Shown piece after piece: positions 8,692 to 10,032 of a stretch of DNA of 13,274 bases. The stretch covers positions 1-13,274 of the forward strand of contig JAGDBW010000202.1 of the NCBI GenBank assembly GCA_017958845.1, read 5' to 3'. Source of the stretch: Clostridia bacterium (lineage in GTDB: Bacteria; Bacillota; Clostridia; Oscillospirales; CAG-272). Every line of letters starts with the position of its first letter. Positions within the stretch are counted from its first letter, which is position 1. The position numbers were made by a program, and so were the translations under genes. Under the pieces are notes generated by a model. That model was not told the DNA's origin and searched no databases. It was given only the letters and a program-made list of their open reading frames with translations.

Positions 8692-10032
8692 ATGGATCAT
8701 CCCGCCCTAAACGATCTCTATCGGCGCGTCGTCGCGCGCAACCCCGGAGAGCCGGAATTTCATCAGGCGATGCACGAAGTGCTCACCTCCATCGAGCCCG
8801 TCGTTTCGCGCTAGCCGATCTATCTCACCAGCGGCGTGGTCGAGCGCCTGGTCGAGCCGGAGCGGATCCTCAAGTTCCGCGTGCCGTGGGTCGACGACGC
8901 GGGCGTCGTCCGCGTCAACCGCGGCTTCCGCATCCAGTACAATTCGGCCATCGGCCCCTACAAAGGCGGCCTGCGCTTCCACCCCACCGTCTACGAAGGC
9001 ATCATCAAGTTCCTCGGTTTTGAACAAACGTTCAAAAACGCCCTCACCGGCCTGCCCATCGGCGGCGGCAAAGGCGGCTCCGACTTTGACCCAAAGGGAA
9101 AGTCGGACGCGGAGATCATGCGTTTCTGCCAGAGCTTTATGACCGAGCTCTATCGGCACATCGGCCCCGACGTCGACGTGCCTGCCGGCGACATGGTCGT
9201 CGGCGGACGAGAGATCGGCTATCTATACGGACAATACAAGCGCATCACCGACACCTTCAGCGGCGTCCTGACCGGAAAGGGGATCCCTTACGGCGGCTCG
9301 CTCGCCCGCACCGAAGCCACGGGCTACGGCCTGTGCTATTTTACCGACGCCATGCTCCGCGACAAAGGGCTGTCGTTTGAGGGGCGCCGCGTCGTGGTCT
9401 CCGGATCCGGCAACGTCGCGCTCTACACGCTCAAAAAGGCGACCGAACTCGGCGCCACCGTCATCGCCATGTCCGACTCCGACGGATATATCTGCGATCC
9501 CGAGGGCGTGGATTTTGAGACGATCCGCACCATCAAAGAAGGCCGCCGCGGCCGCGTCAAAGAGTACGTCGCCGCCCGTCCCCACGCCGTCTATACCGAG
9601 GGCAGTCACGGGATCTGGAGTCTGCCCTGCGAGATCGCGCTCCCCTGCGCGACCCAAAACGAGCTGGACCTCCCCGCGGCCGAACAACTCATCAAAAACG
9701 GCGTGATCGCCGTCGCCGAAGGAGCCAACATGCCCTCTACCCCCGAGGCCGTCGCCGCGTTCCGCTCGGCGGGCGTTCTCTTCGCCCCGGCCAAAGCGTC
9801 CAACGCCGGCGGCGTCGCCGTCTCCGCGCTCGAAATGAGCCAAAACTCGCAGCGCCTCTCCTGGACGTTTGACGAAGTCGACCAAAAGCTGCTTTCCATC
9901 ATGCGTTCCATCTACCGCCGCATCTCCGACGCCGCGGCCGAATACGGCCGGCCGGGCGATCTTGTCAGCGGCGCCAACATCGAGGGCTTTTTGCGCGTCG
10001 GCCGCGCCATGCTGGCGCAAGGCGTCGTCTGA
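8692..10032 (+). CDS. gdhA: NADP-type glutamate dehydrogenase, interrupted by TAG at codon 41
   Basis: The enzyme interconverts 2-oxoglutarate plus ammonia and glutamate. The frame from ATG 8692 to TGA 10030-10032 is 446 codons, matching the E. coli enzyme (447 residues), but codon 41 (8812-8814) is TAG. Family sequence is clear on both sides: NPGEPEFHQAMHEVL before, VVERLVEPERILKFRVPWVDD after. Substrate and catalytic residues are present when counted through the TAG: Lys91 (PYKGG), Lys115 (FEQTFK), Lys127 (GGGKGG) and Asp167 (PAGD), which correspond to Lys89, Lys113, Lys125 and Asp165 of the Clostridium symbiosum enzyme. A Rossmann domain (VVSGSGNVA) and a C-terminal ANIEGF..VGRAMLAQG follow. 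Small departures are TVYEGIIKF where SVNLGIIKF is usual and PAGDMVVGG for PAGDIGVGG. No frameshift is seen. It may be a recent pseudogene, a base error, or a read-through product; initiation at GTG 8836 would lose about 48 residues. Confidence 0.9.
8812..8814 (+). other. In-frame amber codon within gdhA
   Basis: TAG falls in frame between VVSR and PIYLTSG. Relatives carry a His or Asn at this place (for example the ..KHPEY.. or ..QNPKY.. pattern). All eight complete genes of the window stop at TGA (six) or TAA (two), none at TAG. Confidence 0.95.

Follow-up and report, generated by a model that had tools for sequence, protein, structure and literature searches.

Results and discussion

An in-frame TAG in an otherwise intact glutamate dehydrogenase gene

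Does a TAG inside an otherwise intact enzyme gene mark a gene that its carriers have lost, a wrong base in a draft genome, or a codon that is in some way passed over by the ribosome? This question is raised by a glutamate dehydrogenase (GDH) gene in the window (i.e., the whole 13,274-nucleotide stretch analyzed here), which comes from a metagenome-assembled genome of 228 contigs that is 67% complete and has a GC content of 64%. The GDH frame is open on both sides of the TAG and closes at TGA 10030-10032, with 40 codons, start included, lying between ATG 8692 and the TAG (Table 1). When read through, the protein scored 735 bits against the NCBIfam model NF006929 (cut-off 536), aligning over residues 5-446 to profile positions 6-445 of 445, and is thus by family-model score and length an NADP-specific GDH, whose coding frame is nevertheless interrupted at codon 41. 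The motifs GPYKGG, GGGKGG, and PAGD (the last of which we take to be the GDH catalytic motif) are all present, the most similar proteins of known structure, judged by sequence, are GDHs, with PDB 5ijz the closest, and a search of the genome returned a single GDH copy with one internal TAG. An earlier note on this DNA had described an early TAG in an otherwise intact GDH frame, with the key residues in place and a consensus promoter ahead of the gene, and this description was confirmed, the upstream site being promoter-like and, as a match to consensus only, a candidate promoter. The note had also stated that no gene in the window ends in TAG, and the eight window genes whose stops were checked indeed end in TGA (six) or TAA (two), yet genes elsewhere in the genome do end in TAG. 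In another part of the window, an open frame that starts before its first base (1-1836) encodes, as read from its translation, a protein with long internal repeats whose units are built around VGPGDPGNEKASGILAALADKEVG.

Table 1. Coordinates of the features of the GDH locus in the window
Feature	Position	Strand	Basis
Sigma-70-type promoter-like site, TTGACA-17-TATACT	8625..8653	+	Consensus scan, 11/12 matches
NADP-specific GDH gene, interrupted at codon 41	8692..10032	+	NF006929, PDB relatives, frame
In-frame TAG, codon 41 counted from ATG 8692	8812..8814	+	Sequence
Longest downstream start-codon open frame (GTG), 398 residues; possible re-initiation product	8836..10032	+	ORF list
Two adjacent substitutions, residues 168-169, straight after PAGD	9193..9198	+	Leave-one-out conservation count

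Codon 41 among homologues

The read-through protein was aligned with 229 homologues, comprising 29 loci from the genus, 80 loci from a genome collection, and 120 database proteins, with redundancy across the three sets. A sense residue stood opposite the TAG in every one of them (H 76, R 53, S 42, N 27, D 12, and Y, K, E, or M 19), and the disabling change is thus absent from intact relatives. Reading codon 41 in sister genomes, a check put forward in the earlier note, gave a sense codon in all 29 aligned genus loci. The note had expected His or Asn in relatives; both occur, but so do R, S, D, Y, K, E, and M, and judged from this alignment codon 41 is a variable site flanked by conserved blocks. 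Two residues past the TAG lies an Ile that is unusual in the family and was also found in two sisters (L008 and L027). Among the 120 database proteins listed there was no conspecific GDH (the best listed was 75% identical) and the window's own shortened GDH was likewise absent, whereas for the neighboring gene, AsnS, the window's own record was in the database and the next best match was 80% identical.

TAG as a stop codon in the source genome

Stop-codon usage was surveyed in 76 of the 228 contigs, including the window, of which 50 were readable and provided 320,886 bases, or some 30% of the assembly. An initial codon model had the longest open frames as its training set and was discarded after it had picked antisense frames, having been misled by very long antisense open frames such as the two on the minus strand of the window at 1-2319 and 2478-4382 (773 and 634 residues, respectively), which are probably spurious frames lying opposite GC-rich genes. 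Coding segments were then defined, and interior stops screened for, with a second model trained on genes of the window. The resulting 261 coding segments included 234 that were stop-ended, with TGA in 173, TAA in 51, and TAG in 10. When the products of these 10 TAG-ended segments (the genes that the earlier note had proposed to look for) were scanned against NCBIfam, four scored over the cut-off and reached the model end (YicC-type 291/291, HprK 299/300, ThiI 367/373, and MATE 391/396), three had below-cut-off matches only, and three had no match. With 10 of 234 segments ending in TAG, some of them where a family model also ends, TAG functions as a stop in the source genome.

The interior-stop screen, which looked for stops flanked by coding signal both upstream and downstream, covered 95,848 codons and detected 3,126 of 4,460 random interior positions (70%). 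Eleven real stops passed it, including the GDH TAG and the gene's own TGA. Three others split different Pfam families (L16/L29, S5/L30, and phosphoglucomutase/LepA), and at a further three the product upstream extends to its family's end, with no family matched by the downstream frame (ClpB_D2-small 79/81, TrkH 491/502, and URO-D 338/346, the upstream TrkH and URO-D matches falling below the Pfam cut-off). The last three, one at locus L037 and two at L233, have no family upstream, with one weak, below-cut-off match downstream of the second L233 stop, and were judged by eye to be gene ends from what comes after them, either a stretch resembling a terminator or a ribosome site with a start. In the readable ~30% of the genome, at a screen sensitivity of ~70%, no other unexplained interior stop was found, and codon 41 of the GDH gene was the only interior TAG to pass. 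A separate homology census based on the sister genome G055 (400 open frames as queries, 38 readable stretches of 40) found no interior stop in 6,874 codons and carries little weight, with GDH and most genes outside its reach. The reverse census, of source-genome frames against G055, gave two stop sites in G055. In that genome, at L197:14373 on the minus strand, a TGA lies within a 463-residue, 61%-identity alignment to a source-genome frame and is a possible interior stop.

These results bear directly on whether TAG has been reassigned to an amino acid throughout the genome, which the earlier note had thought unlikely and which we now consider scarcely credible. Release factor 1 (TIGR00019) was not found over its 423-bit cut-off in the 67% complete source genome, as reassignment would predict, and the best match there, at 247 bits, is probably release factor 2. 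On the other side, a reassigned code would show many in-frame TAGs and no use of TAG as a stop, and the opposite was seen, with some TAG-ended genes complete to their family ends and one interior TAG in the whole screen. Release factor 1 also scored over the cut-off in 52 of the 69 genomes of the genus, and none of the 22 with completeness of 90% or more and contamination of 5% or less lacked such a match. Genome-wide reassignment is thus contradicted by stop usage, by the interior-stop screen, and by the release factor 1 matches in genus genomes.

Machinery for decoding UAG

A more limited departure would be partial read-through of the codon-41 UAG, by a suppressor (amber-decoding) tRNA or by weak, inefficient termination, which would yield some full-length GDH, with termination efficiency setting GDH output in the lineage. 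In its favor, several residues are tolerated at codon 41 and the reading frame is undamaged before and after it. In addition, the source genome yielded just six tRNA matches, of which ARAGORN called five, and with coverage this poor a CUA tRNA may have escaped notice. Against this, no CUA anticodon occurred among the five called tRNAs of this incomplete set or among 15 tRNAs from the sampled G055 stretches (also an incomplete set), and none of the 29 aligned genus loci has the TAG. A search for PylS, part of another check that the earlier note had suggested, found it over the cut-off in none of the 69 genus genomes, the incomplete source genome included, and in one of 14 control genomes. Weak PylS matches, present in 53 of 69 genus genomes and 13 of 14 controls (one control being over the cut-off), are probably other aminoacyl-tRNA synthetases. 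Decoding of the UAG as pyrrolysine was rejected on this count, and read-through of any kind, for which we found no positive support, appears very improbable.

The earlier note had left four options on the table, namely sequencing error, strain polymorphism, recent pseudogene, and suppression. That list was sound; because TAG works as a stop, no second unexplained interior stop was found, and PylS is over the cut-off in 0 of 69 genus genomes, most of the weight moves to its ordinary members, while nothing points to read-through.

Conservation of the remaining GDH sequence

The window GDH was compared with genus members region by region, and in all three regions its identity to them was slightly below that among the members. 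Mean identity of the window GDH to genus members was 0.609 for residues 6-40, compared with 0.636 among the members themselves, 0.764 vs 0.771 for residues 42-100, and 0.652 vs 0.695 for residues 101-446. It does not have the look of an old pseudogene.

The first of these regions also speaks to a possible restart of translation downstream of the TAG, for example at GTG 8836, which would yield a working GDH shortened by 48 residues. An open frame of 398 residues begins at this codon, and in alignments to archaeal GDH models the window protein is covered only from residue 44 or thereabouts onward, although roughly 21 positions of the archaeal model precede that point. No clear ribosome site was seen by eye just upstream of the GTG. 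Moreover, identity over residues 6-40 is near that among genus members, so the N-terminal part that would be lost was under constraint, and we regard a functional restart as unlikely.

Departures from conservation were few. The other homologues are at least 98% uniform at 130 columns, and the window GDH departs from them at two of these, the adjacent residues 168 and 169, whereas leave-one-out counts for the 29 genus loci gave no departure (23 loci) or one (six loci). Across all 229 homologues, 27 show at least two departures, and 20 of these are among the 55 whose nearest neighbor is less than 82% identical. Since 20 of 55 similarly isolated homologues depart as much or more, the two substitutions may be taken as a weak sign of relaxed constraint.

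A recent nonsense allele or a consensus error

The reading that we tentatively favor, at a little short of even confidence, is that the TAG is a recent nonsense, loss-of-function GDH allele in the sequenced population. A single-base nonsense change would have created the TAG at codon 41 and be carried by that population, translation would end after 40 residues, and the outcome would be a recent loss-of-function allele whose remaining frame is still undecayed. We infer for this case that the cells themselves carry the base, that they make no functional enzyme, and that the change is recent. The use of TAG as a stop in the source genome, the sense residue in all 229 homologues, and the two adjacent rare substitutions beside PAGD, set against zero or one departure in the genus loci, speak for a null allele, while the good preservation of the rest of the gene (two departures at 130 conserved columns) speaks against it.

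GDH is also missing or broken in some other draft genomes of the genus. Matches were found in 65 of the 69 genus genomes, the source genome included, and none in G007, G014, G024, and G034, of which G024 and G034 are 91% and 95% complete, respectively, with 1% contamination. One copy, L158 (G057:C60:8000-11000), has a 21-residue gap and a frame change, and is either a broken gene or a draft error. Stops also occur in the first few codons of the GDH match in G042 (contig 45) and G047 (contig 9), near the contig end in both, and the tblastn alignments of these two genes omit them; the stop at L154:41-43 (G047:C9) is a TAG that corresponds roughly to GDH residue 72 and sits 41 bases from where the contig ends, and is possibly a contig-edge effect. 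Draft errors or gaps could account for the broken copy and the absences alike.

The main competitor of the nonsense allele is an error in the consensus sequence, or a minor strain variant that became fixed in it, in a fragmented metagenome-assembled genome whose organism has an intact GDH, and we give this substantial credence, if somewhat less than an even chance. The assembly is in 228 contigs and incomplete, and the remainder of the gene is well preserved. Over the 95,848 codons screened, 3.05% of single substitutions make a stop, and from a single nonsense change, after allowing for the 70% sensitivity, an error rate of about 1.6e-4 per base would follow, a figure that comes from one event and is very uncertain. 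Such a rate is unremarkable for a draft metagenome assembly. Opposing an error are the lack of a second interior stop in the readable 30% of the genome and the two further rare substitutions in the same gene, though these could be errors too. The choice between a real nonsense allele and a consensus error is thus close to even, and we lean slightly to the allele because GDH is missing or broken in some genus genomes and because of the two rare substitutions beside PAGD.

Relation to known systems and implications

The window GDH resembles GdhA (NF006929 / PRK09414; PDB 5ijz) in its full-length frame, motifs, and length, and differs from it in the in-frame TAG at codon 41 and the two rare residues that follow PAGD. 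Recent bacterial pseudogenes with a single disabling change are a known kind, and the window gene is like them in being an otherwise preserved accessory gene with one nonsense change, but its TAG is known from one draft assembly sequence. Pyrrolysine-type and suppressor-tRNA decoding of UAG are likewise known systems, with which the gene shares an in-frame UAG inside a metabolic enzyme; unlike them, it belongs to a genus without PylS over the cut-off and its UAG occurs in none of the 29 aligned genus loci. A literature search returned general papers only, and among the nearest named relatives of the source lineage, gut and rumen Clostridia predominate.

An occasional recently disabled accessory gene is unremarkable, and neither of the two main outcomes alters current understanding. 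If the TAG is an error, it is a reminder that lone stops in draft genomes should not be taken for pseudogenes or recoding; if the base is real, it would represent one more loss of GDH in an uncultured lineage.
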